From Blautia hydrogenotrophica DSM 10507 (lineage in GTDB: Bacteria; Bacillota; Clostridia; Lachnospirales; Lachnospiraceae), in the NCBI RefSeq assembly GCF_034356035.1, contig NZ_CP136423.1:1116001-1180000 (forward strand): 64,000 nt of DNA. Reading direction: 5' to 3'. This document shows positions 15,086-62,641 of the stretch, piece by piece; the first letter of the stretch is position 1; each line of letters starts with the position of its first letter. The position numbers and the translations under genes were made by a program. Below the pieces are notes generated by a model, which worked only from the letters and a program-made list of their open reading frames with translations, did not search any database and had not been told where the DNA came from.

Positions 15086-15258
15086 GTAATTATTCAGCCA
15101 TAATAGCTCGGATTAGCTGCTGCGCAGCTTATATCGCCGCATATGCGGCGAAATCCTCGCTTATGGCTAAGCGCCATATGCCTGATAAGAGCAAAATTCT
15201 TCTGTGAGCAAGCTTGCTCCGGTTTTTGTTCTTAGCAGTCGCATGGCGGAATAGTTGC
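15086..15258 (+). mobile_element. Non-autonomous terminal-repeat element, type B (copy B1)
   Basis: Left end GTAATTATTCAGCC and right end GGCGGAATAGTTGC are imperfect inverted repeats. The element is flanked on both sides by TACAAAAAA (15077-15085 and 15259-15267), a target duplication. The interior is rich in dyads, such as AGCTGC/GCAGCT, GCCGCATATGCGGC, CGCTTA/TAAGCG and GAGCAAGCTTGCTC. It has no ORF. A second copy in the same orientation is at 40774-40947. It ends 26 bases upstream of the purL start. GTAA-type ends and 8-9 bp duplications suggest movement by an IS66-type transposase. Confidence 0.85.
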
Positions 15259-15284
15259 TACAAAAAAGAAAGCGAGGATACCTA

Positions 15285-18200
15285 ATGAGTAACGTAAGAC
15301 GTGTCTACGTGGAAAAAAAGCCTGCTTTTGCAGTGCAGGCCAGGGAGCTGAAGCATGAGATCAGTAGCTATTTGGGGATTCAGACGGTTACAAATGTGAG
15401 AGTGCTGATTCGCTATGATGTGGAGAATATCTCAGACGAAAGTTTTGAGAAAGCCTGCCAAACTGTGTTTGCAGAGCCGCCTGTAGATGAGCTTTACAGA
15501 GAGGATTTTGAGGCAAAGCAGGGAGCGAGAATTTTTTCTGTGGAATATTTGCCAGGACAGTTTGACCAGAGAGCAGACTCAGCAGTACAGTGCGTACAGT
15601 TTTTAAGAGAGGATGAGGAGCCGATCATTCGCTCTGCGACCACCTATGTGATCGAGGGAGAGATCAGTGAGGATGAGTATGAGGCGATTAAAAACCACTG
15701 TATCAACCCGGTAGATTCCAGAGAGACCAGCTTGGATAAGCCGCAGACTTTGGTGACAGAGTTTGAGGACCCCCAAGATGTGAAAATTTTCCATGGATTT
15801 AAGGATATGGAAGAAGCAGATCTAAAAGAGCTTTATGACTCTTTGGGATTGGCGATGACTTTTAAGGATTTCCAGCACATTCAGAACTATTTTTGCAATG
15901 AGGAAAAGAGGGACCCATCTGTGACAGAGATTCGGGTGTTGGATACTTACTGGTCTGATCATTGCCGTCATACGACTTTTTCCACCGAGCTGAAAGAGGT
16001 GACTTTTGGCGAGGGAGACTATCGTGAGCCGTTGGTGAAGACATACGAGGATTATCTGAATACTCATAGAGAGATGTACCAGGGTAGAGACGATAAATTT
16101 GTGTGTCTAATGGATTTGGCTCTGATGGCGATGCGTAAATTAAAAGCGGAAGGCAAGTTGGAAGACCAGGAGGAATCCGAAGAGATCAATGCGTGCAGTA
16201 TTGTAGTTCCGGTGGACGTGGACGGAGTAGAAGAAGAGTGGCTCATTAATTTTAAAAATGAGACCCACAACCATCCTACGGAGATCGAACCCTTTGGAGG
16301 GGCCGCTACTTGTCTGGGAGGAGCAATCCGTGACCCGCTTTCAGGACGTACCTATGTGTACCAGGCTATGCGTGTGACAGGGGCAGCAGATCCGACGGTA
16401 TCTGTAAAGGAGACCATGAAGGGAAAACTGCCTCAGAAGAAACTGGTAAGAGGTGCGGCCCATGGTTACAGCTCTTATGGAAATCAGATCGGCCTGGCTA
16501 CCGGTTATGTGAAGGAGATTTATCATCCGGATTATGTGGCGAAGAGGATGGAGATCGGCGCTGTTATGGGAGCGGCTCCCAGACGTGCAGTCATCCGGGA
16601 GACTTCTGATCCGGGAGATATCATTATTCTGCTGGGAGGACGTACTGGACGAGATGGAATCGGCGGTGCCACTGGTTCTTCTAAGGTGCACACGGAAGCT
16701 TCGATCGAGGTATGTGGCGCTGAGGTGCAGAAGGGAAATGCTCCGACTGAGCGCAAGATTCAGAGGATGTTCCGTCGAGAAGAAGTCAGCAGACTGATTA
16801 AAAAATGCAATGATTTTGGCGCAGGTGGCGTGTCTGTGGCTATCGGTGAATTGGCGCCGGGCCTGAAGGTAAATCTGGATAAGGTTCCAAAGAAATATGC
16901 GGGGCTGGACGGAACAGAGATCGCGATCTCAGAGTCCCAGGAGAGAATGGCTGTGGTTGTGGACCCCAAAGATGTGAAGGAATTTTTAAAATATGCGAAT
17001 GAGGAGAATCTGGAAGCCATTGAGGTGGCAGTGGTTACAAAGGAACCGCGTTTGGTGTTGGAATGGAGAGAGAAAGAGATTGTCAATATTTCCCGTGCTT
17101 TTTTGGATACCAACGGCGCACACCAGGAGACTACGGTTGCTGTGGATATCCCAAACCAAGAGGGTAGTTTGTTTGTGAGAAAAGAAATCGGGGATGAGAA
17201 AGAGAAATGGCTGGAAACTCTGGCCGACTTGAACACCTGTTCCCAAAAAGGGCTGGTGGAAATGTTCGACGGTTCCATCGGTGCAGGGTCTGTCTTTATG
17301 CCATACGGCGGACAGTATCAGGCCACAGAGACCCAGACCATGGTAGCAAAAGTGCCAGTGCTGAAAGGAAATACCAACACAGTGACTATGATGAGTTATG
17401 GATTCGACCCATATCTGTCTAGTTGGAGTCCGTATCACGGCGCGGCCTATGCGGTGACAGAATCCGTAGCCAGAATCGTGGCGTCCGGCGGTGATTATAA
17501 GAAGATTCGCTTTACCTTCCAGGAGTATTTCCGCAGAATGACGGAGGAGCCGTCCCGCTGGAGCCAGCCGTTTGCTGCGTTGTTGGGAGCTTATGCGGCG
17601 CAGATGGGCTTTGGGCTGCCTTCTATTGGCGGAAAGGACAGTATGTCAGGTACCTTTAATGACATTGATGTTCCGCCTACTCTGGTTTCTTTTGCCGTGG
17701 ATGTGGCAAAATTGCAGGATGTGATTACACCTGAGCTGAAAAAGGCTGGAAATAAACTGGTTTGGCTTCATGTGCCGAGAGCGGAGTATGAGCTACCGGA
17801 TTATAAGGCTTTGATGGAACAGTATGAGAAACTGCATCAGGATATTCAAGCGGGCCGTGTGGTATCCGCCTATGCGGTAGACCGCCAAGGAATCGCTGCG
17901 GCAGTCAGCAAGATGGCCTTTGGAAACCGAAAAGGTGTGAAGATTGAGCACAATGTGGATAAGAGAGATCTGTTTGTGCCAGGCTTTGGGGATATCATCT
18001 GTGAGGTGGCTGACGGCAAAGTGGGCGAGCTGGCAATCACTTATACGGTGATCGGAGAGGTTCTGGAAGAGCAGGAATTTACTCACGGTGATGTGAGAAT
18101 CTCTTTGGACGAGGCATTGGTTTCCTGGAAGGGCACCCTGGAGAAAGTGTTTGCTACTCATTCCGGTGCGCAGCCGCAGCAGGAACGTGAGGCTGTGAAA

Positions 18201-19082
18201 GCCGCTGCTGACGGAAATGGAGAAGTAAAGGACGGACTGTATCACGCAAAGAAGGTCTATGTGTGCAAAAATAAAGTTGCAAAACCGAGGGTCTTCATAC
18301 CAGTATTTCCAGGGACGAACTGCGAGTATGACAGCACCAGGGCTTTTGAACGGGCAGGCGCCGAGGTAGATGTAAAAGTGTTTAAGAACCTCACGGCTGA
18401 GGACATTCGGGATTCCGTGGAGATTTTTGAGAAAGCCATCGGACAGGCACAGATGATTATGTTCCCGGGCGGATTTTCAGCGGGAGACGAGCCGGATGGT
18501 TCCGCGAAATTCTTTGCGACGGCTTTCCAGAACGCAAAGATGAAGGAAGCTGTTATGAGACTGCTCAATGAGAGGGACGGCTTGGCGTTGGGAATCTGCA
18601 ACGGTTTCCAGGCTCTGATTAAGCTTGGACTTGTACCCTGCGGTGAGATTGTTGGACAGACGGAAAATTCTCCGACTCTGACCTTTAATACTATTGGACG
18701 CCACATTTCTAAAATGGTGTACACAAAAGTGGTTTCCAACAAATCGCCATGGCTAGCACAGGCTGAGCTGGGCAAGGTGTACTGTAATCCGGCGTCCCAC
18801 GGAGAAGGGCGTTTTGTGGCCAGTGATGAGTGGCTTCAAAAACTTTTCGCTAACGGCCAGGTGGCTACTCAGTATGTGACTCCGGAAGGAGAACTGAGAG
18901 TGAATGACGAGGAGTGGAATGTCAATGGTTCATACTGTGCGATTGAAGGTATCACAAGCCCGGACGGAAGGGTGCTGGGCAAGATGGCGCACAGCGAGCG
19001 CAGGGACCGTGGAGTCGCGATGAATATCTACGGAGAGCAGGACATTCGTATTTTTGAGTCGGGTGTGCAGTATTTTAAATAA
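15285..19082 (+). CDS. purL: Phosphoribosylformylglycinamidine synthase, single-chain
   Basis: A 1265-residue enzyme of step 4 of purine synthesis: FGAR + glutamine + ATP to FGAM. The order is an N-terminal PurS-like part, two AIRS-type halves with the FGAM synthase signature region (TYWSDHCRHTTFSTEL near 215, and NFKNETHNHPTEIEPFGGAATCLGG near 325), and a C-terminal glutamine amidotransferase with nucleophile Cys in GICNGFQ and HGEGRF. The long form is found in many Lachnospiraceae. The start is ATG 15285 after AGCGAGG; an upstream in-frame TTG would read out of a mobile element. It stands apart from purE-M-N-D at 52.8 kb. Its leader is largely the B1 element. Confidence 0.96.
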   Translation: MSNVRRVYVEKKPAFAVQARELKHEISSYLGIQTVTNVRVLIRYDVENISDESFEKACQTVFAEPPVDELYREDFEAKQGARIFSVEYLPGQFDQRADSAVQCVQFLREDEEPIIRSATTYVIEGEISEDEYEAIKNHCINPVDSRETSLDKPQTLVTEFEDPQDVKIFHGFKDMEEADLKELYDSLGLAMTFKDFQHIQNYFCNEEKRDPSVTEIRVLDTYWSDHCRHTTFSTELKEVTFGEGDYREPLVKTYEDYLNTHREMYQGRDDKFVCLMDLALMAMRKLKAEGKLEDQEESEEINACSIVVPVDVDGVEEEWLINFKNETHNHPTEIEPFGGAATCLGGAIRDPLSGRTYVYQAMRVTGAADPTVSVKETMKGKLPQKKLVRGAAHGYSSYGNQIGLATGYVKEIYHPDYVAKRMEIGAVMGAAPRRAVIRETSDPGDIIILLGGRTGRDGIGGATGSSKVHTEASIEVCGAEVQKGNAPTERKIQRMFRREEVSRLIKKCNDFGAGGVSVAIGELAPGLKVNLDKVPKKYAGLDGTEIAISESQERMAVVVDPKDVKEFLKYANEENLEAIEVAVVTKEPRLVLEWREKEIVNISRAFLDTNGAHQETTVAVDIPNQEGSLFVRKEIGDEKEKWLETLADLNTCSQKGLVEMFDGSIGAGSVFMPYGGQYQATETQTMVAKVPVLKGNTNTVTMMSYGFDPYLSSWSPYHGAAYAVTESVARIVASGGDYKKIRFTFQEYFRRMTEEPSRWSQPFAALLGAYAAQMGFGLPSIGGKDSMSGTFNDIDVPPTLVSFAVDVAKLQDVITPELKKAGNKLVWLHVPRAEYELPDYKALMEQYEKLHQDIQAGRVVSAYAVDRQGIAAAVSKMAFGNRKGVKIEHNVDKRDLFVPGFGDIICEVADGKVGELAITYTVIGEVLEEQEFTHGDVRISLDEALVSWKGTLEKVFATHSGAQPQQEREAVKAAADGNGEVKDGLYHAKKVYVCKNKVAKPRVFIPVFPGTNCEYDSTRAFERAGAEVDVKVFKNLTAEDIRDSVEIFEKAIGQAQMIMFPGGFSAGDEPDGSAKFFATAFQNAKMKEAVMRLLNERDGLALGICNGFQALIKLGLVPCGEIVGQTENSPTLTFNTIGRHISKMVYTKVVSNKSPWLAQAELGKVYCNPASHGEGRFVASDEWLQKLFANGQVATQYVTPEGELRVNDEEWNVNGSYCAIEGITSPDGRVLGKMAHSERRDRGVAMNIYGEQDIRIFESGVQYFK

Positions 19083-19286
19083 TAGACATATTAAGAGAAA
19101 ACTGTCTAAAGTGTCAGAAAACGTTGGTTATTTTGTACGGTTTCGATAGGTTGCTACCAATTTTGAGAATATAGTAGTATATTAAATTTAAACCTAGGTG
19201 AACTTAAAAATGTCTTGTCAGTTCTCTCATATCCGCAGTTCTTGCGATGTCTGTTCAGATGGAAACTGTATATAAGGCATAACAGA

Positions 19287-19324
19287 AAAGAGCTTTCACA
19301 TGCAAAAAGTGAAAGCTCTTTTTT
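19287..19324 (+). terminator. Intrinsic terminator downstream of purL
   Basis: AAAGAGCTTTCAC pairs with GTGAAAGCTCTTT around ATGCAAAAA, followed by TTTTTG. It lies about 200 bases after the purL stop; the sequence between holds no gene. Confidence 0.85.
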
Positions 19325-19379
19325 GTGTGCATCGCGAAGTGTGTTACTGCTCACAAACCGCAAGCGAGTGAACAGTAAC
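19325..19379. repeat. Right end of a type E terminal-repeat element (copy E2, partial)
   Basis: GTGTGCATCGCGAAGTGTG, then TTACTGCTCACAAACCGCAAG, ending GAGTGAACAGTAAC. It closely matches 25927-25981, the right third of the complete element E1, and 41106-41160. No matching left end was found, so this copy is a fragment attached directly to the purL terminator. Confidence 0.65.
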
Positions 19380-19489
19380 TGGACGGAAGAATTAGAGGGT
19401 GATTTTCAGACAATTTCCTTTCTTTTTTATTCTTTAGAAGGCATAATATCATTGTTATAATTATCTGTTTTAAAACTTGATATGTAGAA

Positions 19490-19603
19490 ATGATTATGGC
19501 ATTACTTCAGGAAAAATCATATACGATTGACGATATTTACGCATTGTCAGATGGAACGAGAGCTGAATTGATTGACGGGGATTTAAAGATTAAAATCGAA
19601 TAG
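19490..19603 (+). pseudogene. Truncated Uma2-family endonuclease remnant
   Basis: A 37-codon reading frame translating to MIMALLQEKSYTIDDIYALS then DGTRAELIDGDLKIKIE. This is the well-conserved N-terminus of Uma2 (DUF820) PD-(D/E)XK-fold proteins, which are normally about 190 residues with YTxxDIYxLPxGxRAELIDGxxY. The frame stops where the family continues with a Met/Pro-rich strand, so the nuclease core is lost. It lies in a gene-poor patch between purL and the tRNAs, next to repeat fragments, consistent with decay of accessory DNA. The family assignment rests on this short segment. Confidence 0.68.
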
Positions 19604-19627
19604 CTGTTGCGCGTTATCAAAGGAGTG

Positions 19628-19652
19628 AAAGAGTCCTGGCAAGGGCTCTTTT
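19628..19652. terminator. Possible hairpin terminator downstream of the tRNA pair
   Basis: AAAGAGTCC pairs with GGGCTCTTTT around TGGCAA. It lies 160 bases beyond the tRNA-Met 3' end on the minus strand and could end that transcript; on the plus strand TTTTGCTTT follows. Confidence 0.35.
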
Positions 19653-19814
19653 GCTTTGCAAAAAATGAAAGTAATTTCGAGGGTTTTACAGCTGAGGTGG
19701 TGACATAGGTGCGGAGCCCATAGGTAATCACTAGAGTGATTACATTTCGTTTTCGTGAAAAAATAAAAATCCTGAAACCCCAGTAAAATCAAGGATTTCA
19801 GGACCTAAACGAAG

Positions 19815-19888: not shown

Positions 19889-19903
19889 ATATTCTTAAGT
19901 ATA

Positions 19904-20088: not shown

Positions 20089-20252
20089 GTAACAGTTCAG
20101 TCAGCACCATTCGTAAAACCGCACTGCATGCTACTCGTGGTTGCCGCCACCGTTTTACTTATGGAAAGGTGCTCAACTCAAACAGATACTCGTTCGTAAA
20201 AACATACAAGTATGTTTTATGCTTCTCGTACACTGTATGGCTGAATTGTTAC
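20089..20252 (+). mobile_element. Non-autonomous terminal-repeat element, type A (copy A1)
   Basis: 164 bases with ends GTAACAGTTCAGTCA and TGGCTGAATTGTTAC. GAAAAA directly abuts both ends, a possible 6-bp target duplication. It aligns without gaps, at roughly four in five positions, with the reverse complement of 41745-41908 (A2), which has the same length. Both copies keep an internal hairpin of the type AAAACATA...TATGTTTT. No ORF. It lies between the tRNA genes and the egsA promoter. Confidence 0.85.
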
Positions 20253-20307
20253 GAAAAATTGCAAAAGTTTGTATCTGCACTCATGAAACGCTGCCAGCCC
20301 GTTTTTC

Positions 20308-25672: not shown

Positions 25673-25676
25673 ACAG

Positions 25677-25829: not shown

Positions 25830-25981
25830 GTTACAGTTCAGGCTCCAATATCCCGCGAGGTGTTTTTGACATTTTGTACAAAAATCACGAGACATACTCG
25901 CGCCAAACTGCTGTTTACAGCAATTTGTGTGCATCTCGAAGCGTGTTACTGATCACAAACCGCAGGTGAGTGAACAATAAC
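25830..25981 (+). mobile_element. Non-autonomous terminal-repeat element, type E (complete copy E1)
   Basis: 152 bases with left end GTTACAGTTCAGG and right end GTGAACAATAAC, imperfect inverted repeats, flanked on both sides by the perfect 8-bp repeat AAAAGGAG (25822-25829 and 25982-25989). The right third matches the fragment at 19325 and the element at 41072; the stretch TCCCGCGAGG is also shared with the element at 62323. No ORF. The remaining sequence up to glnS shows no gene. Confidence 0.85.
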
Positions 25982-38659: not shown

Positions 38660-40735
38660 TTAAGCATTTATGTCTGTGAGCATCATCATGATTTCATTGC
38701 TGCGGTTGACAAAGCGAGTCATTTCTTCAGGAGATAACTGCTTGTGGCTCAGCATGGCCAGATCGTAGAGTTGTTCACAGATAATCGGAACTTTTTGGGA
38801 ATCCTGGTGTTCTACTACAAACTGTACCAGAGGATGGTTCGCATTGAGTACGAGAGTCTCGTCACCGCCAAACATGTTCGGGTCCATCCCATACATATTG
38901 TACATTTTCATCATTTCCTGCATACGGCGGCTGTCCTCGGACAGGGTCATCATTGCAGACAAGTTCTCATTTTTTAGTTTTTCTACTTTTACTTCCAGCT
39001 TTTCTTTGTTCAGGTTTTTGCGGAAAAGCTCGGTCAAGGATTTTGCCAATTCTTCGTCGGTCTCGGCATCCTCCTTTAGACTGTCTGTCACGTCGGCATC
39101 AATTCTCTGGAAACGGATTTCCTGGTTGAGCTGCTCCAGATGGGAGATAAAAGCAGTATCAATGTTGTGGCGAAGAATTACTGCATCCATCCCCTGTTCT
39201 TTGAACAGATTGATGTACTGGCTTTGCTGCACAGGGTCTGTGACGTAGTAGAGAATCGTTTTCTTTGGTTCTTTCTCAGAATCCTCCTCTTTATTTTCTT
39301 TATCCTGCTCTTCGGTTGTTGTCTCTTCAGTGATGGATTCATCGGTCTCTTTCTTATTTTTCTCGATGCAGTCTTTTAAGGTCAGATATTGGTCATCTAG
39401 ATTCTTAAAGAGAATATAGTCCATCATCTTTTCAGAAAACTTTTGATCTTTGATACAGCCGAATTTGATGAAAGGACTGATGTCATCCCAGTATTTTTCA
39501 TAGGATTCCCGGTCTGTTTTGCACATTCCTGTCAATTTGTCAGCTACTTTTTTCGTGATATACTCCGAGATTTTCTGGACAAAGCCATCGTTTTGAAGCG
39601 CGCTTCTGGATACATTCAGAGGAAGATCTGGACAATCAATCACACCTTTTAAAAGCATCAGGAATTCAGGGATAACTTCCTTGATGTTGTCTGCGATAAA
39701 GACCTGATTATTGTATAGTTTGATCGTTCCCTCGATGGAATCGTACTCGGTGTTAATTTTAGGAAAATAGAGAATTCCCTTCAGATTAAACGGATAATCC
39801 ATGTTTAAGTGAATCCAGAACAAAGGTTCTTTGTAGTCTAAGAAGACTTTGCGGTAAAAGCTGCGATAATCTTCATCGTCGCATTCATTGGGATGTTTGG
39901 TCCACAGTGGATGAGTGTCGCTTAGAGAGACTGGACGCTTATTTATTTTGACCTTATCCTTGGCAGGAGATACTTCTACAATCTCTTTCTCGCCATTTTC
40001 ATTTTCTTTTTCTTCTGTCTTTGCCTCTTCGTGAATACGCTCTACGATCACATCGTCGTCCCTTAAATCAGACTCTTCTATGGTCTCATACTCCTGTTCA
40101 GCGTTGGCCTTGGACAGATAGATGTTCACAGGCATGAAAGAACAGTATTTTTCCAGTACTTCTCGCATGCGATACTCGTTGGAGAATTCTAAGCTGTCCT
40201 CATTCAAAAAGAGCGTGATTTCAGTACCGACGGTGTTCTTATTTCCGTCCTGAATATCATACTCAGTACCGCCGTCGCAAGTCCAATGGACAGCGGTGGA
40301 GCCTTCCTTGTAAGAAAGCGTGTCGATGTGGACTTCATCAGCTACCATAAATGCGGAATAAAAACCAAGACCAAAATGGCCAATCATTTGATCGTCAGTA
40401 GTTTTGTCTTTGTATTTTTCTAGGAATTCTGTAGCTCCTGAGAAGGCAATCTGGGTAATATATTCCTCAACTTCATCGGCGGTCATGCCGAGTCCAGTGT
40501 CTATGAATTTCAGTGTCTTTTCTTCGGGATTGACAATTACATTGATCTGTGCTTTGTAGTCGTCGGGGAAACTGTATTCTCCCATAACTTCCAGTTTTTT
40601 TAGCTTTGTGATGGCGTCACAGCCGTTTGATACCATTTCACGTACGAAAATATCATGATCGGAATATAGCCATTTTTTTATAATGGGGAAGATATTTTCA
40701 CTATTGATTGATAAACTACCATGCTTTGCAGCCAT
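38660..40735 (-). CDS. htpG: Molecular chaperone HtpG (Hsp90)
   Basis: A 691-residue dimeric, ATP-dependent cytosolic chaperone. The GHKL ATPase domain has VREMVSNGCDAITKLKKL (with Asn and Asp replacing the usual ELISNASDA), FIDTGLGMTADEV, and GHFGLGFYSAFMVAD. The middle domain carries ILYFPKI and GVIDCPDLPLNVSRSALQ with the catalytic Arg. An acidic insert of about 35 residues (ESITEETTTEEQDKENKEEDSEKEP) lies between middle and C-terminal parts. ATG 40735 follows GGAGAG on the minus strand; a GTG three codons upstream is less likely. A CIRCE operator and promoter lie about 260-330 bases upstream, and a mobile element sits in the leader. Confidence 0.95.
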   Translation of the reverse strand: MAAKHGSLSINSENIFPIIKKWLYSDHDIFVREMVSNGCDAITKLKKLEVMGEYSFPDDYKAQINVIVNPEEKTLKFIDTGLGMTADEVEEYITQIAFSGATEFLEKYKDKTTDDQMIGHFGLGFYSAFMVADEVHIDTLSYKEGSTAVHWTCDGGTEYDIQDGNKNTVGTEITLFLNEDSLEFSNEYRMREVLEKYCSFMPVNIYLSKANAEQEYETIEESDLRDDDVIVERIHEEAKTEEKENENGEKEIVEVSPAKDKVKINKRPVSLSDTHPLWTKHPNECDDEDYRSFYRKVFLDYKEPLFWIHLNMDYPFNLKGILYFPKINTEYDSIEGTIKLYNNQVFIADNIKEVIPEFLMLLKGVIDCPDLPLNVSRSALQNDGFVQKISEYITKKVADKLTGMCKTDRESYEKYWDDISPFIKFGCIKDQKFSEKMMDYILFKNLDDQYLTLKDCIEKNKKETDESITEETTTEEQDKENKEEDSEKEPKKTILYYVTDPVQQSQYINLFKEQGMDAVILRHNIDTAFISHLEQLNQEIRFQRIDADVTDSLKEDAETDEELAKSLTELFRKNLNKEKLEVKVEKLKNENLSAMMTLSEDSRRMQEMMKMYNMYGMDPNMFGGDETLVLNANHPLVQFVVEHQDSQKVPIICEQLYDLAMLSHKQLSPEEMTRFVNRSNEIMMMLTDINA

Positions 40736-40773
40736 TTTATTCACTCTCCTTTGATTTTCAATTTAAAATGTTC

Positions 40774-40947
40774 GTAACTATTCAGCTATAATAGCTTGGA
40801 TTAGCTGCTACGCAGTTTATATCGCGACACATGCGGCTAAATCTTCACTTATGGCTAAGTGTCATATGCCTGATAAGAGCAAAATTCCTCTGTAAGCAAG
40901 CTTACTCCGGATTTTTGTTCTTATCAGTTGCATGGCTGAATAGTTAC
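40774..40947 (+). mobile_element. Non-autonomous terminal-repeat element, type B (copy B2), in the htpG leader
   Basis: 174 bases, ends GTAACTATTCAGCT and ATGGCTGAATAGTTAC, flanked by AAATGTTC (40766-40773) and AAATATTC (40948-40955), a 7/8 target duplication. It matches B1 (15086-15258) along its whole length in the same orientation. The stem CGCTTA/TAAGCG of B1 is CACTTA/TAAGTG here, a paired change. It lies between the htpG promoter and start codon, so it is transcribed as part of the htpG leader. Confidence 0.88.
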
Positions 40948-41004
40948 AAATATTCTGTCTTTGTCGATAGCAGCATTTGACAATTTTGCTGCCTTATAAA
41001 AAAT

Positions 41005-41033
41005 ATAGTAATACGGGGGGAGTGAAAAGTCAA
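41005..41033 (-). promoter_or_regulatory. Promoter of htpG
   Basis: On the minus strand TTGACT (41033-41028) and TACTAT (41010-41005), spacer 17. The -35 box lies 7 bases downstream of the CIRCE operator. The leader to ATG is about 260 bases, of which 174 are the B2 element. Confidence 0.8.
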
Positions 41034-41040
41034 GGGAAAA

Positions 41041-41067
41041 TTAGCACTCATATAAAATGAGTGCTAA
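41041..41067. promoter_or_regulatory. CIRCE operator (HrcA binding site)
   Basis: TTAGCACTC (41041-41049), nine bases, GAGTGCTAA (41059-41067): an exact CIRCE palindrome. HrcA represses class I heat-shock genes through it. Here it stands upstream of the htpG promoter. In B. subtilis htpG is not under CIRCE control. Confidence 0.95.
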
Positions 41068-41071
41068 TAAT

Positions 41072-41160
41072 AATTCGGCTTCAGTTTCTAATGTTTCGCG
41101 AGGGTTTGTACATCGCGAATTGTGTTACTGCTCACGAATTGCAAGTGAGTGGGCAGTAAT
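41072..41160 (+). mobile_element. Degenerate type E terminal-repeat element next to CIRCE (copy E3)
   Basis: The interior TTCAGTTTCTAATGTTTCGC then GAGGG aligns with the left part of E1, and GTGTTACTGCTCAC then GCAAGTGAGTGGGCAGTAAT with its right part. The middle of E1 is missing. CTAATAAT (41064-41071) and CTAATCAT (41161-41168) flank it, a 7/8 duplication; the first copy overlaps the CIRCE half-site. The left terminus is poorly conserved. Confidence 0.6.
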
Positions 41161-41217
41161 CTAATCATCGGCTCTGTAATCCTTTTTTGTTGTGCTAGAA
41201 CTTAGAAGCACAGCAGT

Positions 41218-41721
41218 TTAAAGTTGTTCGTAAGAGATATTGTGCTTTTTAAAATAATGGATAAGCATTTTATCCCAGATCGTATCAAAAGTCTTATCCA
41301 TGGTAAAAATACGGTAAGAGGTTCCAGTGGTGGCAGTTAACTGAGAGCCGTTGAACAGGAAATTCAGATAAAGTCCAGATATGTCTTCTGGGGCAAGGGA
41401 GATGCCGCTGTCTGAGAGCATACGATTGGTATTTTCTCGGGAGAGCTGGAATACAATTTTAAAGTGAAGAGGTGTGTGCTTTCCGCGAATGATAGACAGA
41501 CAGAATGGTTTGACCTCACGCCAAAGTGAGTGAGTACGTTTTGTCTTATCTAGGATCTCCAAAGCAGAAGAGTCTAAGAAATCACGGTGTAAACTCCCAT
41601 CTATTAGGAAGGTATTGTAGGTAGTGATAGACACCTCCACCACCCAAAAAGGGTCGAAGAGATCACTCTTTAGTAGCCGATTCATAAAGTCTTTTAAATC
41701 TGTAATCTGTAAAGCAATCAT
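41218..41721 (-). CDS. DUF5721-family protein
   Basis: A 167-residue protein starting MIALQITDLKDFMNRLLKSD, a family of unknown function I recall as DUF5721, common in Lachnospiraceae. Typical stretches are VEVSITTYNTFLIDG, SLWREVKPFCLSIIRGKHTPLHFKIVFQLS and the C-terminal FDTIWDKMLIHYF. No membrane segment or catalytic signature. ATG 41721 follows AAAAGGAGAA. The frame continues upstream into the neighbouring A2 mobile element, but that part is not coding. Whether it shares a transcript with htpG is unclear because a promoter and CIRCE lie between them. Confidence 0.78.
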   Translation of the reverse strand: MIALQITDLKDFMNRLLKSDLFDPFWVVEVSITTYNTFLIDGSLHRDFLDSSALEILDKTKRTHSLWREVKPFCLSIIRGKHTPLHFKIVFQLSRENTNRMLSDSGISLAPEDISGLYLNFLFNGSQLTATTGTSYRIFTMDKTFDTIWDKMLIHYFKKHNISYEQL

Positions 41722-41744
41722 GCAGATTCTCCTTTTAAAGTGAA

Positions 41745-41908
41745 GTAACAGTTCAGTCATACAGTGTACGGAAAACATAAAACATATGTGTATGTTTTTG
41801 CAAGCGGATATCTGTATAAGGCGAGCGCCTTTCAATGAGTAAAACAATGGCGTTAGCCACGATAAGCACGCAGTGCGGATTTACGAATGACGCTGGTTGA
41901 ACTGTTAC
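41745..41908 (-). mobile_element. Non-autonomous terminal-repeat element, type A (copy A2)
   Basis: 164 bases, ends GTAACAGTTCAGTCA and CTGGTTGAACTGTTAC, flanked by a perfect 8-bp direct repeat AAAGTGAA (41737-41744 and 41909-41916). It is the reverse-complement counterpart of A1 (20089-20252), equal in length. No ORF. It lies 23 bases upstream of the DUF5721 start on that gene's strand. Confidence 0.92.
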
Positions 41909-42061
41909 AAAGTGAATGTGAAAAAAGGCTTTTCTTCTTTATTATAGAACAGAATACAAAAAAAGAATAGAGTTTTTACCAAAAACTCTTTTCAAAGCAG
42001 GAAGGTTATGGTAGTATATATGTGGTATTAAAAACTACATATTATGGGAATGAGGACGATT

Positions 42062-42904
42062 ATGAGCAGTTATAAGATAATAATAGATAGTTGTGGGGAA
42101 TTGTTAGACGATTGGAAGGGAGATTCCAGATATGAATCGGTTCCCTTGATTCTCACAGTGGGTGGGGAAGATATTGTGGATGATGAAACTTTTGAGCAGA
42201 AATCTTTTTTGGCAAAAGTTGCAGCCTGTCCAGAATGTCCAAAGTCCTCTTGCCCTTCGCCAGAAAAATATATGCAGGCATTCGAGTGTGAGGCGGAACA
42301 TGTCTATGCGGTCACACTCTCAGCAGAGCTCAGTGGTTCTTACAATAGTGCTCTGTTGGGGAGAAAATTGTCTTTGGAAGAATATCCGGAGAAGAAGATC
42401 TATGTATTTAATTCCCGTTCAGCTTCTGTGGGGGAGACTTTAATTGCATTGAAGATTACGGAGTGCGAGGAGTCCGGAATGTCTTTTGAGGAGACAGTAG
42501 CAGAGGTTGAGAGCTATATTGATTCCCAGAATACCTTTTTTGTCCTAGAAAACCTAGAGACACTCCGCAAAAACGGAAGACTCAGCAAAGTAAAAGCTTT
42601 AGTTGCTTCTGCTTTAAAAATCAAACCTGTCATGGGGGCGACGAAAGAGGGAACAATTTGTCAGCTAGACCAGGCAAGAGGAATCAATAAAGCTTTGGTT
42701 AAAATGGTTGACTATGTGGTGGAGAAGACAAAGGATAGTGGAAATAAAATACTGGCAATTTCTCATTGCAACTGTCCAAAAAGGGCGGAGATTTTAAAGG
42801 AAGCGATCTTAGAGAGAATGGAACTGAGGGATATCTTAGTGTTGAATACCGCAGGGGTCAGTAGTATGTACGCCAATGACGGTGGAGTGATTGTGGTAGT
42901 TTGA
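42062..42904 (+). CDS. DegV family fatty-acid-binding protein
   Basis: A 280-residue DegV protein (FakB-like), which holds a fatty acid for phosphorylation by FakA. YKIIIDSCGELLDDW is the N-terminal strand, then VTLSAELSGSYNSALLG (Ser-containing fatty-acid head-group loop), FNSRSASVGETLIALKI, and LENLETLRKNGRLSKVKALVASALKIKPVM (conserved Arg region). ATG 42062 follows GAGG; ATG 42044 is an alternative six codons upstream. A Cys-rich insertion, CPECPKSSCPSPE, near residue 60 is typical of the family. No fakA-like gene is nearby. Ligand is inferred from family knowledge. Confidence 0.88.
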   Translation: MSSYKIIIDSCGELLDDWKGDSRYESVPLILTVGGEDIVDDETFEQKSFLAKVAACPECPKSSCPSPEKYMQAFECEAEHVYAVTLSAELSGSYNSALLGRKLSLEEYPEKKIYVFNSRSASVGETLIALKITECEESGMSFEETVAEVESYIDSQNTFFVLENLETLRKNGRLSKVKALVASALKIKPVMGATKEGTICQLDQARGINKALVKMVDYVVEKTKDSGNKILAISHCNCPKRAEILKEAILERMELRDILVLNTAGVSSMYANDGGVIVVV

Positions 42905-42982
42905 TTTCGCTTGTGACTTTTCTTTTTGGGAAGAATATGATAAACTAATGCTGAAAACTTTGCGGAACAAAGGAGATGTGGC

Positions 42983-43306
42983 ATGAGTCAAAAGAAAGTT
43001 GATGCATATAAACAAAAGAAAGCGAACCGTGACAAAATTATAAAGAAAGAAAAGAGGATTCTTTTTCTGGAGAAAGCAGCAGGAGTGATGATTTGTCTGG
43101 CTGTGGTGGTATGGTTGGGATATTCTGTGTATGGGAAGGTAACTCAGCAGGAGGAGACTAAGACTACAGAGACAGTGATGGATGCCAGTGCGGTGGACGA
43201 GTATACCAATGAACTGGCAGAAGAAATCACAGATCCACAGAACACACCGGAAGCAGAAAATGAGATAGATGAGGCTGCGTCAGACGGTACCGTTCAAGAA
43301 AAGTGA
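42983..43306 (+). CDS. Single-pass membrane protein of unknown function
   Basis: A 107-residue protein with a basic N-terminus (SQKKVDAYKQKKANRDKIIKKEKR), one membrane helix (AAGVMICLAVVVWLGYSVYG, about residues 32-51) and an acidic, Thr/Glu-rich tail outside. By the positive-inside rule the N-terminus is cytosolic. It begins after AAAGGAG, 78 bases behind the DegV gene, and is followed by a strong terminator. No family recognised. Confidence 0.72.
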   Translation: MSQKKVDAYKQKKANRDKIIKKEKRILFLEKAAGVMICLAVVVWLGYSVYGKVTQQEETKTTETVMDASAVDEYTNELAEEITDPQNTPEAENEIDEAASDGTVQEK

Positions 43307-43342
43307 GGTAAGTATCCGTAAAAGTACGTTTGACAACGTAAA

Positions 43343-43379
43343 AAAACCCCCAGACAGAAATTCTCTGTCTGGGGGTTTT
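43343..43379. terminator. Strong intrinsic terminator between converging genes
   Basis: AAAACCCCCAGACAGA (43343-43358) pairs perfectly with TCTGTCTGGGGGTTTT (43364-43379). It can serve both the gene at 42983 and the cold-shock gene. Confidence 0.93.
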
Positions 43380-43447
43380 CGTCACTCAGAATATCTACAA
43401 TAATCTCTCTGTGACTGAGGACCCTGCCGGGCATATTTTGTTAGGTT

Positions 43448-43648
43448 TTATAATTTGGTGACATTTGCTGCTTGCATGCCACGTGCCCCTTCTGTCAGAT
43501 CATAGGATACAGACTGTCCTTCTTCTAAAGACTTGAATCCTTCTCCGTTGATTGCAGAGAAATGTACAAATACATCTGCACCGTCTTCTCCAGTAATGAA
43601 ACCATAACCTTTTTCGGCATTGAACCATTTCACAGTTCCTTTGTTCAT
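43448..43648 (-). CDS. Cold-shock protein, CspA family
   Basis: A 66-residue single-strand nucleic-acid-binding protein. Start [18 protein letters not shown] contains RNP1 (KGYGFI), and DVFVHFSAI is RNP2; the rest is a complete five-strand OB fold. It works as an RNA chaperone in the cytosol. GGAGGTAAC precedes the start. Its upstream leader contains a terminal-repeat element (43678-43799), in the region where cold-shock genes often have a regulatory 5' UTR. Confidence 0.95.
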
Positions 43649-43677
43649 AATGTTACCTCCATAAAAAAATAAAAATT

Positions 43678-43799
43678 GTAACTGTTCAGCTTACATCGCT
43701 GCAATGATTTGACAAAGAAGCCACAAAATCTGATAATCACAGGTGCCAACTGCAGTAAAACTCCGTGTGACTCCGAAAAATGTAGAACTGAATTGTTAC
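43678..43799. mobile_element. Terminal-repeat element, type C, upstream of the cold-shock gene
   Basis: 122 bases with ends GTAACTGTTCAGCTTA and TAGAACTGAATTGTTAC, imperfect inverted repeats of the same type as A1 and A2. The interior differs from types A, B and E. No target duplication is detectable (TAAAAATT against AGGTTAAA), so insertion may be old. It starts 30 bases upstream of the csp start. The remaining 290 bases up to pyrC hold no convincing gene. Confidence 0.7.
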
Positions 43800-44087
43800 A
43801 GGTTAAAGAAGTTACTGGTGAAATAAAAAATCACCAGTTTCTAGGAAATATATTGTTGTAATATACTTTCTAAAAACTCGTGATAGTCTTTACATCCAAT
43901 ATCTTCTATACTGAATCTAATTATAGAGGTATTTTGTCCAAAAGTCAAGGTAAAAAACTCTTTATTAAAAAGAATTTTTCGTGTATAGTATTGATTATAG
44001 GACTTATCATAAATATTAAGACCATATTAGTGTACAGATATAAAGTGAGTCATGCTACACAGTATATAGAAAGGATGGGTACAAAGG

Positions 44088-56463: not shown

Positions 56464-56480
56464 GATAATAATAAAACAAA

Positions 56481-56570
56481 CACAGGGGTGCTGATGAGAA
56501 TCGGCTGAGAAAAAGCGAGAAGTTTTTAACCCTAGAACCTGTATCTGGATAATGCCAGCGTAGGGAGTCA
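56481..56570 (+). promoter_or_regulatory. TPP (thi-box) riboswitch
   Basis: CACAGGGGTGC, then GGCTGAGA, AACCCTAGAACCTG, and the core CTGGATAATGCCAGCG followed by TAGGGA. This is the full set of conserved TPP aptamer segments, so thiC is repressed by thiamine pyrophosphate. Confidence 0.97.
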
Positions 56571-56592
56571 TGAAAGGATTTTGTTATCATAC

Positions 56593-58027: not shown

Positions 58028-58067
58028 ACAATAAAAGTATATTGTGGGAGTTGTCGATATTGAAAGG

Positions 58068-58095
58068 AAAGGATTGCTTCAGGCAGTCCTTTTCT
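58068..58095 (+). terminator. Terminator of thiC
   Basis: AAAGGATTGC (58068-58077) pairs with GCAGTCCTTT (58083-58092) around TTCAG, with TTCTGTATT after it. Confidence 0.75.
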
Positions 58096-58239
58096 GTATT
58101 ATAAGGAGGCTTTTGGAAAGAAGTATATTAAGGAGTATCAGTCAGGTGCTTTGTCAGATGGTTTATTGACAAGAACAGAAGAAAGACGGTACAATGTACA
58201 AATCGAGGCTTACCTTCCAATACTGGGAGGTGTTATAGA

Positions 58240-59037
58240 ATGATAGGAGCAGTTAGAAAGGATAAAAAAATGACGAGAGAAAGTATCATTAAAAATTTAC
58301 AGACTGCAGATTGCTTTTACGTACCCTTCTCTGTGAGTACAAGAATGCCTTATGTGATGTGTGATCCGATAGATTTTGACGATCAGATACTTGTCTTTGA
58401 GAGAGAGGAAGATCTAAAAGCGTATGTCAAAGCGCAGGTGGAGCAAAAAAATCTGATGCAGGCCACGAGGGTGGAGAAGTCCATGTACAATAGATTTTAT
58501 GGGAATCTCTATGGAATCGGTGTCAACGCGATCCTGTACAAAAAAGGAGATGAGGAACGAAAAATTGAGCTGAAAGATGTGGCAGTCCAGGCAGATTTTT
58601 CAAAGATTCCTGAGGAGAAGAAGCCGCTTTTGAATCCTACTTTGCAGTTGTCAGGAATATATTTTATGCAGGCGTGGCGTAGAAATCTACCGCCAGAGGA
58701 GAAAGGGGATATCCGATCTTTGGAGGAAGAATTGGTGGCAAACATCATACGGTCTAAGTTTCTTCTGGCTGTGGATATAAAAGGAGAAGGCGAGGAGAGG
58801 AAATTCAATGTTCCTTTTGTCAAGAATAAAGTAGGAGACATCTATCAGCCGTGTTTTTCAGATGTGATGGAGTTTCAGAAGTTTGCCGCAGAAAGAAAAC
58901 TGGGATTCCTAAAAGTAGATTTTCAAAAAATGCCTGGTCTTTTGGCAAAACAGGCAAAAGGGTATGTGCTGAATCCGGCAGGAATCAATTTGATGCTTCA
59001 GCGAGAACAGCTAAACCGGATGGCAAAACTGAAATGA
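58240..59037 (+). CDS. SseB-family protein
   Basis: A 265-residue cytosolic protein resembling SseB (enhanced serine sensitivity) domain proteins: FYVPFSVSTRMPYVMCDPIDF..ILVFEREEDLKAYVK near the N-terminus, and the C-terminal VPFVKNKVGDIYQPCFSDVMEFQKFAAERKLGFLKVDF...YVLNPAGINLML, which is the SseB N-terminal domain pattern. Function of the family is not known. ATG 58240 is nine bases after TGGGAGG; ATG 58270 is an alternative. It is a single gene between the thiC terminator and the gntR promoter. Confidence 0.75.
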   Translation: MIGAVRKDKKMTRESIIKNLQTADCFYVPFSVSTRMPYVMCDPIDFDDQILVFEREEDLKAYVKAQVEQKNLMQATRVEKSMYNRFYGNLYGIGVNAILYKKGDEERKIELKDVAVQADFSKIPEEKKPLLNPTLQLSGIYFMQAWRRNLPPEEKGDIRSLEEELVANIIRSKFLLAVDIKGEGEERKFNVPFVKNKVGDIYQPCFSDVMEFQKFAAERKLGFLKVDFQKMPGLLAKQAKGYVLNPAGINLMLQREQLNRMAKLK

Positions 59038-59107
59038 CCGTGTGTCGTTGTAGACGAAATAGACGGAGAAAATGCACCTAATTTGTCTAAATTAATATCA
59101 AAAAATC

Positions 59108-59136
59108 TTGATTTTCTGGTCTTCTTGTGCTACTAT
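59108..59136 (+). promoter_or_regulatory. Promoter of gntR-clpC-acyP
   Basis: TTGATT at 59108-59113 and TACTAT at 59131-59136, spacer 17. No CtsR heptad repeat (GGTCAAA pairs) or CIRCE lies nearby. Confidence 0.75.
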
Positions 59137-59174
59137 GCATATAACAAAAGTTACGAGAGAGAAGGAATGCGAGA

Positions 59175-59543
59175 ATGCTGATAGAAATAGATTTTAATAG
59201 TGATGAAGCAATCTATATGCAGCTGACCAATCAGATCATCATGGGGATTGCCACATCCAGGCTAAGAGAAGGGGACCCTTTGCCTTCTGTCCGGCAGCTA
59301 GCCGATACCATTGGCATTAATATGCATACGGTGAACAAAGCATATTCTGTGCTGAGGCAAGAGGGGTTTGTGACCATTGACCGTAGAAGAGGCGCAGTGG
59401 TGAACATCGACGTGGATAAGATAAAGGCACTTCAGGAAATGAAAGCGAATTTGACGGTTCTTTTAGCGAGAGGATGCTGTAAGAATATCACAAGGGAGGA
59501 AGTTCATCAGCTGATTGATGAAATTTTTGAAGAGTATTCGTGA
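59175..59543 (+). CDS. GntR family regulator, YtrA subfamily
   Basis: A 122-residue regulator with only the winged helix (AIYMQLTNQIIMGIATSRLREGDPLPSVRQLADTIGINMHTVNKAYSVLRQEGFVTIDRRRGAVV) and a short helical tail with two adjacent Cys (ARGCCKNITREEV), as in YtrA-like proteins that usually control transporters in the same operon. It lies 24 bases before clpC in the place where ctsR would stand in Bacilli. It may therefore regulate clpC, which is inference. The Cys pair might sense redox or metal, a speculation. Confidence 0.88.
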   Translation: MLIEIDFNSDEAIYMQLTNQIIMGIATSRLREGDPLPSVRQLADTIGINMHTVNKAYSVLRQEGFVTIDRRRGAVVNIDVDKIKALQEMKANLTVLLARGCCKNITREEVHQLIDEIFEEYS

Positions 59544-59567
59544 CAATGCTAACTAGAGGAGAGGACA

Positions 59568-62051
59568 ATGCGAAAAAATTTTGAGATTTATACAGAACAA
59601 GCTAAGGCAGCTCTGAAATATTCAACACATGTGGCGAGGGATTTGAACAATAATTATGTTGGCACGGAACACATCTTGATGGCGTTGTGCAAGGTGAAAA
59701 ATTCTACGGCACAGATGATTTTAGAAGAGTTTGGAGTAGAGACAGAAAAGCTTCAGGAGTTAATCAGTAAATTGATTGCACCGCCTTCTAACGTGTGTAC
59801 CGATTTGGAACCAGATTACACCCCCAGATCGAAAAGGCTGATGCAGAATAGTGAAGATGAGGCAAATGCGGTGCAGGCGCAGAAGGTGGGAACAGAGCAT
59901 CTGCTGATCGCAATGCTGAAGGATACGGAATGTGTAGCGACTCGTCTGCTGTATACGATGGGCGTGAATATTCAGAAAATGTTTCTTGCGGTTTTGGCGG
60001 CGACGGGGATGGATAAACAATATACGCAGGAAGAACTTCAGAATGGCAAATTTATGAAACCGAGGGAAAATGCCGCAGTGGCTACTCCGACGCTAGATCA
60101 GTACAGCAGAGACCTCACGGAACAGGCAGCCAGCGGGAAATTGGACCCTGTGGTGGGAAGAGAAGAAGAGATTGCAAGATTAGTACAGATTTTGAGTCGG
60201 CGGACGAAAAACAATCCTTGTCTGGTGGGAGAACCAGGTGTGGGGAAGACGGCCATCGTGGAAGGGTTGGCCCAGAGAATTGTCTGGGGGTTAGTGCCAG
60301 AGTCCATGAAGGACAAACGACTGGTGGTTTTGGATTTGTCCAGTATGGTGGCCGGTACGAAGTACCGAGGTGAATTTGAAGAGCGCATAAAAAATGTGGT
60401 AAAAGAAGTCACAGAGCACAGAGGAATTCTTCTGTTTATTGATGAATTGCACACGATCATTGGGGCTGGAGGAGCAGAAGGGGCACTGGATGCTTCTAAT
60501 ATCTTAAAGCCTTCTTTGTCTAGAGGGGAAATCCAACTGATTGGCGCGACTACGATAGAAGAGTACAGAAAACACATTGAAAAGGACGCTGCGTTGGAAC
60601 GCAGATTCCAGCCGGTGACAGTGGAGGAGCCTTCAGAGACTGAGACTGTGGAGATCTTAAAAGGACTGCGGCCTTATTATGAAAATCACCATGGAGTTGT
60701 GATTGAGGACTCTGCGGTGGAGGCCGCGGTGAAGATGGCGGTACGCTATATCAATGATCGGTTCCTTCCGGATAAGGCGATTGACATCATTGACGAGGCG
60801 TCGTCGAAAGTGCAGCTCGCGGGGTATCAGGCTCCGGAGAGATTGGTTGCGCTGGAAAAAGAAGTGCAGCATCTGACGTTAGAGAAAGAAGCGGCTTTAA
60901 AGCGCGGGGATTTAGAAAAAGCAAAAGAAGTGCAGCAGCTTCAGGAGAGAAAACGTCAGACGATCAGTGAAGAGAAAGAGCGGGCAAACCGTCGTGGAAA
61001 ACGAAAGAAGTTAGTTGTAACGGAGGACTCTGTGGCGGATATTGTCTCAGGCTGGACAAAGATACCAGTAAAAAAACTAGCTGAGAAGGAATCCCGGAGG
61101 TTAGTTAGATTAGAAAAAGAGCTTCACAGACGGGTGATTGGTCAGGAGGAAGCCGTCACAGCAGTGGCACAGGCAGTGAAAAGGGGACGCGTGGGATTGA
61201 AAGACCCCGCTCGTCCAATAGGTTCCTTCCTGTTTTTAGGACCCACAGGAGTGGGAAAAACGGAACTTTCAAAGGCTTTGGCGGAAGCCGTATTTGGCAC
61301 GGAACAGGCGATGATACGAGTGGATATGTCGGAATATATGGAAAAGCATAGCGTGTCTAAATTGATTGGTTCACCGCCAGGATATGTGGGATATGATGAG
61401 GGAGGGCAGCTCTCGGAGAAAGTAAGACGCAACCCGTACAGTGTGATTTTGTTTGACGAGATCGAAAAGGCCCATCCAGATGTCTTTAATATTTTATTGC
61501 AGGTGCTGGATGATGGACACATCACAGATGCCCAGGGTAGAAAAATAGACTTTAAGCAGACGATTATTATCATGACTTCCAATGCGGGAGCTCAGGTAAT
61601 CGTAGAGCCGAAAAAATTAGGCTTTGGGGCACAGGAAGATGAGAAGCAAGACTATGAGAGAATGAAATCTTCCGTGATGGATGAAGTGCGCAGGATGTTT
61701 AAGCCGGAGTTTTTAAACCGCATCGATGAAATCATCGTGTTCCATTCACTAAATAAAGAGCATATTAAGAAAATTGTAAGTATCCTTTTGAAAAACTTGG
61801 AAAAGAGATGCAAAGATACAATGGGAATCACTTTGAAGGTGAGCAATACTGTAAAAGAGCATTTGGCAGAGGCTGGATTTGACAGTAAATATGGCGCAAG
61901 GCCTTTGCGCCGTGCGATTCAGACAAAGATAGAGGATGCTATGGCTAATGAGATTTTGGAGGGCCGGATTCAGCAAGGTGATACGGTACATGTGCGTATG
62001 GTGAAAAAAGAAGTTTGTTTTGTGGTGGAAGAACAGAAGGAAGAAGAATGA
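59568..62051 (+). CDS. clpC: ATP-dependent Clp protease ATPase subunit ClpC
   Basis: An 827-residue Hsp100 unfoldase that feeds ClpP. Two ClpN repeats lie at residues 1-145, the first AAA+ module has GEPGVGKTAIVEGL and LLFIDELHTIIGAGG, the UVR-like middle region is LEKAKEVQQLQERKRQTISEE, and the second AAA+ has GPTGVGKTELSKAL and VILFDEIEKAHPD. It lacks the ctsR-mcsA-mcsB neighbours of Bacilli; arginine-kinase tagging genes are not in the window. Its stop overlaps the acyP start by four bases. Confidence 0.95.
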   Translation: MRKNFEIYTEQAKAALKYSTHVARDLNNNYVGTEHILMALCKVKNSTAQMILEEFGVETEKLQELISKLIAPPSNVCTDLEPDYTPRSKRLMQNSEDEANAVQAQKVGTEHLLIAMLKDTECVATRLLYTMGVNIQKMFLAVLAATGMDKQYTQEELQNGKFMKPRENAAVATPTLDQYSRDLTEQAASGKLDPVVGREEEIARLVQILSRRTKNNPCLVGEPGVGKTAIVEGLAQRIVWGLVPESMKDKRLVVLDLSSMVAGTKYRGEFEERIKNVVKEVTEHRGILLFIDELHTIIGAGGAEGALDASNILKPSLSRGEIQLIGATTIEEYRKHIEKDAALERRFQPVTVEEPSETETVEILKGLRPYYENHHGVVIEDSAVEAAVKMAVRYINDRFLPDKAIDIIDEASSKVQLAGYQAPERLVALEKEVQHLTLEKEAALKRGDLEKAKEVQQLQERKRQTISEEKERANRRGKRKKLVVTEDSVADIVSGWTKIPVKKLAEKESRRLVRLEKELHRRVIGQEEAVTAVAQAVKRGRVGLKDPARPIGSFLFLGPTGVGKTELSKALAEAVFGTEQAMIRVDMSEYMEKHSVSKLIGSPPGYVGYDEGGQLSEKVRRNPYSVILFDEIEKAHPDVFNILLQVLDDGHITDAQGRKIDFKQTIIIMTSNAGAQVIVEPKKLGFGAQEDEKQDYERMKSSVMDEVRRMFKPEFLNRIDEIIVFHSLNKEHIKKIVSILLKNLEKRCKDTMGITLKVSNTVKEHLAEAGFDSKYGARPLRRAIQTKIEDAMANEILEGRIQQGDTVHVRMVKKEVCFVVEEQKEEE

Positions 62052-62326
62052 GACAGAAAATACGCAAGCATCTTATTTTCAAAGGAAGAGTCCAAGGAGT
62101 CGGCTTTCGATTTGTAGCTAGACATTCTGCTGAGGCCATCGGACTTACTGGCTGGGTGAGAAATTGCTGGGACGGCAGTGTTGAGGCAGAGGTTCAAGGG
62201 ACCTCGGAAGAAATAGGGCTGTTTTTGAAAAAGATATATGAGGCACGTTATATCCAGATTGAGGACTTAGAGGCAAAGCAGCTGCCCTTGAAAGAGGAAC
62301 GAGGTTTTCAAGTACTTCACGGGTAA
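62048..62326 (+). CDS. acyP: Acylphosphatase
   Basis: A 92-residue enzyme hydrolysing acyl phosphates. FKGRVQGVGFRFVARHSAEAIGLTGWVRNCWDGSVEAEVQG contains the catalytic Arg (VGFRF) and Asn (WVRN) in the ferredoxin-like fold. ATG 62048 overlaps the clpC stop. The last residues are VLHG and the TAA stop is supplied by the left end of a mobile element inserted at 62323. From the target duplication the original sequence would have read CTTCACGGTTGA, giving the same VLHG with a TGA stop, so the protein is unchanged. Confidence 0.93.
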   Translation: MRQKIRKHLIFKGRVQGVGFRFVARHSAEAIGLTGWVRNCWDGSVEAEVQGTSEEIGLFLKKIYEARYIQIEDLEAKQLPLKEERGFQVLHG

Positions 62327-62465
62327 CAGTTCAGCCTGACACTGTCCCGCGAGGCGTCACGCTGCATTTGCAGTGGGATCCCGAGGACAGCAGGCGCCAG
62401 ACTGAGAGAATCGCAGTCTGTGTGCATACATTTGTGACAGTGAAGCCAAAAGGCTGAACGGTTAT
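62323..62465 (+). mobile_element. Terminal-repeat element, type D, inserted at the acyP stop codon
   Basis: 143 bases, ends GTAACAGTTCAGCCTG and AAAGGCTGAACGGTTAT, flanked by CTTCACGG (62315-62322) and CTTCACAG (62466-62473), a 7/8 duplication. The stretch CTGTCCCGCGAGGCG resembles type E (25858), otherwise the interior is distinct. No ORF. Confidence 0.82.
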
Positions 62466-62562
62466 CTTCACAGTTGAATTATGCAGAGAAACTATGGAAA
62501 AAGAGTAAGTTTTATTATATAATAAACTTAATAAACACCCGCGTTGAATGCGCAGAAAGTTT

Positions 62563-62641
62563 GTAACGGTTCAGCCATGTAAGCTCAGATTCGCAGCTGC
62601 CGTATATGCGCCGGAATTTTCGCTTATAGCTGAATAGTTAT
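62563..62641 (+). mobile_element. Short terminal-repeat element, type B-like (B3)
   Basis: 79 bases, ends GTAACGGTTCAGCCATG and TATAGCTGAATAGTTAT. GCTGCCGTATATGCG and TTTTCGCTTATAGCTG match the left third of B1, so this is an internally deleted copy. Flanks GAAAGTTT and AAAAGGTT agree at 6 of 8 positions. With element D it accounts for over half of the 396-base gap. Confidence 0.7.

Follow-up and report, generated by a model that had tools for sequence, protein, structure and literature searches.

The ends of IS66-family insertion sequences (IS) begin with GTAA. BOX, ERIC, RUP and NEMIS/Correia repeats are small, fold stably and are dispersed over intergenic regions, and for some of them mobilisation by IS has been proposed, while the interiors of MITEs are usually regarded as neutral filler. 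According to the accessible part of its description, ISDge4, a member of the ISBst12 group, has the ends GTGACTACTCAGCA and GTAACTGCTCAGCA, an 8-bp direct repeat and one DDE ORF (PMC12898284). MITEPsy1 and MITECca01, in the accessible parts of the corresponding papers, are short and ORF-free, with IS-like inverted ends, target duplications and many copies, and are linked to IS5-like and IS982 elements (PMC3189936, PMC9769881). The elements described here come from a window of 64,000 nucleotides, positions 1116001-1180000 of the first of the two contigs of the 3.6-Mb Blautia hydrogenotrophica DSM 10507 genome (hereafter the own genome). They resemble MITEPsy1 and MITECca01, as far as these sources go, in being short, ORF-free and multicopy, with inverted ends and target duplications; unlike them, they have an IS66 element as partner, and two of their types, C and E, contain a conserved covarying core common to several genera. 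Their partner elements look much like ISDge4 and the ISBst12 group, with similar ends, a PF03050 domain, a single ORF and 8-bp duplications, whereas the window elements themselves have no ORF and only the ends in common with the IS, and one end class, GTTAC, departs from GTAA. The likeness to BOX, ERIC, RUP and NEMIS/Correia is one of description, the sequence comparison being that with Rfam, in which the elements remained without a match. No IS66-derived MITEs, and no MITEs in Lachnospiraceae, were named in the titles and abstract beginnings listed by searches of an open-access library. The present analysis adds three points to an earlier note: relatives carry the partner transposon, the own genome is an orphan in this respect, and a widely shared, strongly covarying core goes with several end classes.

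An earlier note on this DNA had listed eight short segments without ORF but with shared inverted ends, together with a degenerate ninth, and had proposed that they are IS66-mobilised MITEs of at least four internal types. All eight were recovered at unchanged coordinates by the end scan, the pairing of ends and the reading of copies (Table 1). The ninth, at 41072, is also real, and its match to the core model identifies it as a decayed copy of the 25830 type. No convincing gene lies inside the window elements (79-174 bp), which thus lack, as MITEs do, a transposase gene of their own.

Table 1. Elements of the window, with positions counted from its first nucleotide
Feature	Position	Strand	Remarks
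Type A MITE	15086-15258	+	173 bp; ends and flanks TACAAAAAA 9/9
Decayed C/E-type copy, absent from first list	19237-19379	+	R1 match 19237-19349, E 3e-4
Type B MITE	20089-20252	-	164 bp; ends; without remaining duplication
Type E MITE	25830-25981	+	152 bp; flanks AAAAGGAG 8/8; structured core 25848-25951
Type A MITE	40774-40947	+	174 bp; flanks 7/8
Decayed E-type copy	~41072-41160	+	R1 match 41091-41130, E 0.005
Type B MITE	41745-41908	+	164 bp; flanks AAAGTGAA 8/8
Single-copy type	43678-43799	+	122 bp; without remaining duplication
Type C MITE	62323-62465	+	143 bp; flanks 7/8; structured core 62342-62440
Short element	62563-62641	+	79 bp; flanks 6/8

The 41072 copy has lost most of its P1 and P2 hairpins and is flanked by CTAATAAT and CTAATCAT, which agree at 7 of 8 positions (ends and flanks judged by eye). 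In the decayed copy at 19237, the right end GTTACTGTTCACTC is found on the minus strand at 19366-19379 and the left end is indistinct. A long hairpin followed by a T run (19280-19330) occupies the place of P2 in this copy and may act as terminator for the purL-like gene that lies upstream. By eye, the 62563 element resembles type A in shortened form. For the 62323 element, the type C consensus was taken in the reversed direction in the type list.

The common ends extend far beyond the window: GTAACWRTTCAGYC occurs 80 times exactly in the own genome, the reversed control pattern never, and at up to two mismatches the count is 302, versus 113 for the control. Exact GTAACWRTTCAGYC ends are present in 13 of the 41 genomes searched. 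A clear excess of ends inside the window alone was considered and rejected, since 32 were counted at up to three mismatches for 23.8 expected and 10 of 100 shuffles reached 32. An end-pair script run on 60 own-genome stretches and the window gave 61 pairs in all at up to four mismatches; some of these may be chance pairs (L053:991 and L058, for example), and the duplication statistics were thus limited to the 45 pairs with at most two mismatches. The flanking repeats prove to be exactly 8 bp long, with 23 of these 45 elements matching at 7-8 of 8 positions and 11 matching perfectly. Random pairing of flanks yields 0.18 such elements on average and two at most, and shifting the flanks by 1 to 6 bases also leaves no more than two. 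Mean flank identity is 0.75 at length 8, versus 0.30-0.43 at lengths 5-7 and 9-11. The elements have 14-bp terminal inverted repeats and a target duplication of fixed length, as MITEs do.

Dispersed copies are accompanied by element-free sites. In a search of the region 40500-43950 against 25 genomes, the flanks were found close together in many relatives; ten stretches per site were chosen for 40774 and 43678 because both flanks matched, and all ten, at each of these two sites, have the orthologous spacer without the element. These relatives belong to other species, hence the sites are not base-precise. Copies are also nested within one another: at L005, the edge of a type A copy is occupied by a type C copy with the 8/8 duplication AAGTGATC, and at L021 a type A copy is interrupted by a type C copy. 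At L052:301-566, type A-like ends surround an interior with an unrelated hairpin-rich stretch, which is perhaps another nested element.

The transposons that an IS66 origin implies were found in related Lachnospiraceae, where they share these ends and have perfect 8-bp duplications. Scanning species genomes with alignment A1 yielded 33 IS66-family loci, whose titles are mostly those of Lachnospiraceae or its genera, the others being Clostridiales, Eubacteriales, Bacillota or 'bacterium'. At 15 of the 33 (six genomes), the ends match at 15-16 of 16 positions and the duplication is 8/8; the remaining 18 are truncated at contig ends, degenerate or undecided by the script. Of the 33 loci, L172 is the same place as L091, and L161, missed by the end script, is the same place as L092, whose two flanks differ from each other. 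The partner elements are about 1.8 kb long, with a single ORF of about 485-490 aa, as in the ISBst12 group, and an IS66 DDE domain (PF03050, E 6e-25 and 3e-18); against the NCBIfam IS66 model NF033517, L092 scores 154.5 bits, below the cut-off of 180. Genome G024 has its transposase gene between ends GTAACAGTTCAGCC, with AAATTTTG as the flank on either side. In genome G009, contigs break off at an end of this IS in four places (L093, L094, L095 and L097), an indication that several copies of the partner element are present there.

The PF03050 domain was found in 16 of 41 genomes, and 30 IS66 loci from this search include eight with 8/8 duplications, four of them with GTAAGCG, two with GTAAC (L070, L072) and two with GTTAC ends (L073, L074). 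Among 12 further stretches, L326, L327 and L330 have GTTACTGTTCAA ends with 8/8 duplications, in genomes with at least 15 and 59 core matches. The GTTAC-ended IS66 elements are a sister class of the partner transposons: types A, B and C begin with GTAA, type E and its IS partners with GTTAC. Similarity between MITEs and IS is confined to about 14-28 terminal bases in the five IS copies compared, and the idea that the MITEs are internal deletions of the IS was rejected on this account. The own genome has no IS66 transposase detectable with PF03050 at E up to 0.001, and no match to the L092 transposase protein. The core is more frequent in genomes with a transposase hit (11/17) than in those without one (14/47; P 0.02, 64 genomes in total), yet 14 of the 25 core-bearing genomes, the own genome included, give no such hit.

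Types C and E are built on one plan: left end, TATCCCGCGAGGYGT, hairpin P1, CCCGAG, hairpin P2 and right end, with GTGCATCGCGAAGCGTGTTACTG inserted between P2 and the right end in type E only. The 40 C/E elements in the fetched loci comprise 22 of subtype E1, ten of subtype E2, whose first half follows the core plan and whose second half is different, and eight of type C; duplications are perfect in 17 and match at 7 or more positions of 8 in 27. By eye, C/E elements contain an internal copy of the end, inverted relative to the right end. The core is combined with the end classes GTAACAGTTCAG (type C), GTTACTGTTCAC (E1 and some E2) and GTAACTATTCAG (other E2). Its presence within an autonomous IS66 element was considered and rejected, as none of 61 loci matched it at E ≤ 1. 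Since the core stands behind at least three end types and in none of the 61 IS66 loci, core and ends have recombined. Of the internal types first distinguished, A and B have interiors that look unrelated to the rest, in line with the proposal of different cargos on one transposition system; C and E collapse into one core plan, for which this proposal is to be complemented by that of one core combined with several ends.

Model R1, derived from 22 E1 cores and comprising 25 pairs, also detects both decayed copies of the window and, at 62342-62440 with E 6e-5, type C. While 23 of 64 Blautia genomes contain a match to the 25830 element, often restricted to its positions 18-123, the R1 core is found in at least 25 of the 64. 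It is present in at least 21 of 298 genomes of the family, corresponding to at least 20 of 280 genera with the own genus included, and in at least 10 of 294 genomes of an order sample, all 10 in this same family. Matches per genome amount to at least 32 in the own genome, 59 in G078, 54 in G065 and 50 in G023. All these values are lower bounds, as the genome scans used stricter filters and scored 61 (Blautia), 13 (family) and 13 (order) candidates per genome. One exact pattern of the core gave no match on viral contigs, and blastn with the 25830 element none among PLSDB plasmids. Rfam gave no match at gathering score over the window elements, and none at E up to 1 over the elements of six loci.

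At one locus, L288 (G172:C59), a core copy is flanked by GGTACCTGACACC palindromes, presumably REP-like, instead of IS66-type ends. A second, REP-like carrier of the core, suggested by L288 alone, was provisionally rejected in view of the GTTAC ends at other loci of this genome: among its 12 loci, L305, L306 and L308 have such ends with 8/8 duplications and L307 with a 7/8 duplication. Seven others (L309-L315) were left unoriented by the script, so that only L305-L308 bear on this rejection.

The fold of the core was analysed in alignment A4, made of 41 cores with E no higher than 1e-10, of which 40 are distinct; E2 and C loci and five near-copies were excluded. Both sides change in 13 of 25 pairs (8.9 in shuffles) and in 114 cells (35.2 in shuffles), and 96.9% of the cells pair, versus 85.1% in shuffles; none of 500 shuffles reaches the observed value in any of five measures, and structures slid along the alignment pair at 35-50%. 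A4 is fitted to the model, and the shuffles leave relatedness in place. A MAFFT alignment made before the model points in the same direction, with 0/500 on four measures and 8/500 on the fifth. The arms of P1, in 29 distinct stems, have a pairing score of 13.3 with their own partner and 8.4 when swapped (0/2000 permutations). Each of the 41 cores folds better than 60 dinucleotide shuffles of itself (z < -2, median -4.2). Helix P0 hardly varies, with no pair changed on both sides in A4, and is not evident in type C. For type B, covariation support was looked for and not found (12 copies; RNAalifold covariation term -1.06). Type A covariation is mixed: in 12 copies, cells changed on both sides number 21 versus 8.3 and, like the covariation score, are reached by 0/500 shuffles, whereas pairs changed on both sides (5 versus 3.6) are reached by 45/500 and further pair types by 376/500.

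A strand test compared G-U with A-C cells, counted on the R1 strand. Their ratio is 58:14 in the core, or 26:14 (P 0.08) without one conserved G-U pair, and 15:8 (P 0.21) in P1 stems. In end stems it is 12:19 for the 40 C/E elements, 8:6 for nine type B and 0:3 for six type C copies, and core and C/E ends differ with a Fisher P of 0.03 without, and 6e-5 with, the conserved G-U pair. Type A gives 52:40 in its internal helices and 13:3 in its end stems (22 copies), although the latter were expected to be neutral, which weakens the end-stem control. The strand test is weak; it leans towards RNA without being decisive.

Further copies, element-free orthologous spacers, and IS66 elements that agree in their ends and in the 8-bp duplication together bear out the IS66 origin proposed earlier. 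Very probably, the elements are MITEs moved in trans by IS66-family transposases, and selection on its fold, most likely in the form of RNA, maintains the three-helix C/E core. Single-ORF IS66 DDE transposases like those of the ISBst12 group would recognise the common ends, move the MITEs and leave the 8-bp duplications; the matching transposase would have been lost from the own genome or be supplied from outside. Selection would act on the core fold most likely through an RNA transcribed from one strand. A more specific reading, which we put forward tentatively and which falls somewhat short of probable, takes the C/E core for a structured RNA of Lachnospiraceae that has so far gone undescribed, carried as MITE cargo and switched among the three IS66 end classes, with a selected fold and, in some genomes, dozens of copies in leaders and spacers.

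As a rival explanation, plain IS66 MITEs could have their arms kept complementary by template switching at quasi-palindromes, with no selection on the fold. P1 and P2 are indeed small-loop hairpins, the best setting for arm-to-arm correction, whole stems rather than single pairs have been replaced, and type A covariation is, as said, only mixed. However, such a process should erase imperfections, and these are kept: the bulge T in 39/41 cores, the TG/CG internal loop in 41/41 and a G-U at pair 85-116 in 32/40. The high conservation of the unpaired CCCGAG and GCATCGCGAAGCG also speaks against template switching, which we consider unlikely.

Alternatively, the core could be a cis- or trans-acting RNA useful to the host, taken up as cargo and spread partly because hosts favour it. 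Its presence in at least 20 of 280 sampled genera of the family, behind several end types, and the position of the elements in leaders and spacers of basic genes would fit such a role. However, a fixed orientation to genes was looked for and not found. The 57 distinct core loci, none of which lies within a predicted ORF, have flanking gene pairs that are, relative to the element, (+,+) in 24 cases, (-,-) in 15 and divergent in 15, with one gene unseen in three; convergent pairs number 0/54, a count limited by the fact that convergent spacers make up only 487 of the 9,923 spacer bases in the window. As the two window sites compared are empty in the fetched relatives, single insertions are not conserved either, and a host-useful RNA appears distinctly improbable. 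Least credible is a transposase of a non-IS66 family, with IS66 ends alike by chance or through common capture: the own genome has no detected IS66 transposase, which would fit, but 15 of 33 IS66-family loci, in a comparison restricted to IS66 transposases, combine ends identical over 14-16 bases with 8/8 duplications, and the idea hardly merits belief. Under the preferred reading of trans-mobilised MITEs with a selected fold, the lack of a fixed orientation makes a self-serving role the first guess: the fold may favour the spread of the MITE, or its toleration as a structured segment of leaders and spacers.

Many gut Lachnospiraceae thereby gain a source for dispersed intergenic repeats, tied to one transposase family. 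Heavy compensatory change in a MITE interior is unusual and, should the fold act at the RNA level, a single mobile module would have been inserted into the leaders of many genes.

The neighbourhood of the window elements can be described in part from Pfam matches. The 15086 element lies just upstream of a purL-like gene and the 25830 element upstream of a class I tRNA synthetase gene; the acylphosphatase ORF 62015-62326 ends within the 62323 element, its TAA stop being bases 2-4 of the latter. A gene that we take from its sequence to be cold-shock-like adjoins a window element. On one side of the 40774 element lies the start of an hsp90 gene, encoded on the minus strand, and on the other a CIRCE-like repeat; as the element separates this repeat from the start codon, the hsp90 leader would become longer. 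The repeat itself (41041-41067, upstream of the hsp90 gene) is a perfect inverted repeat, TTAGCACTC-9-GAGTGCTAA, presumably the CIRCE (HrcA) operator, and adjoins a -10/-35-like stretch kept in relatives. Elsewhere in the window, a TPP riboswitch is found at 56474-56583 (RF00059, 62.1 bits).
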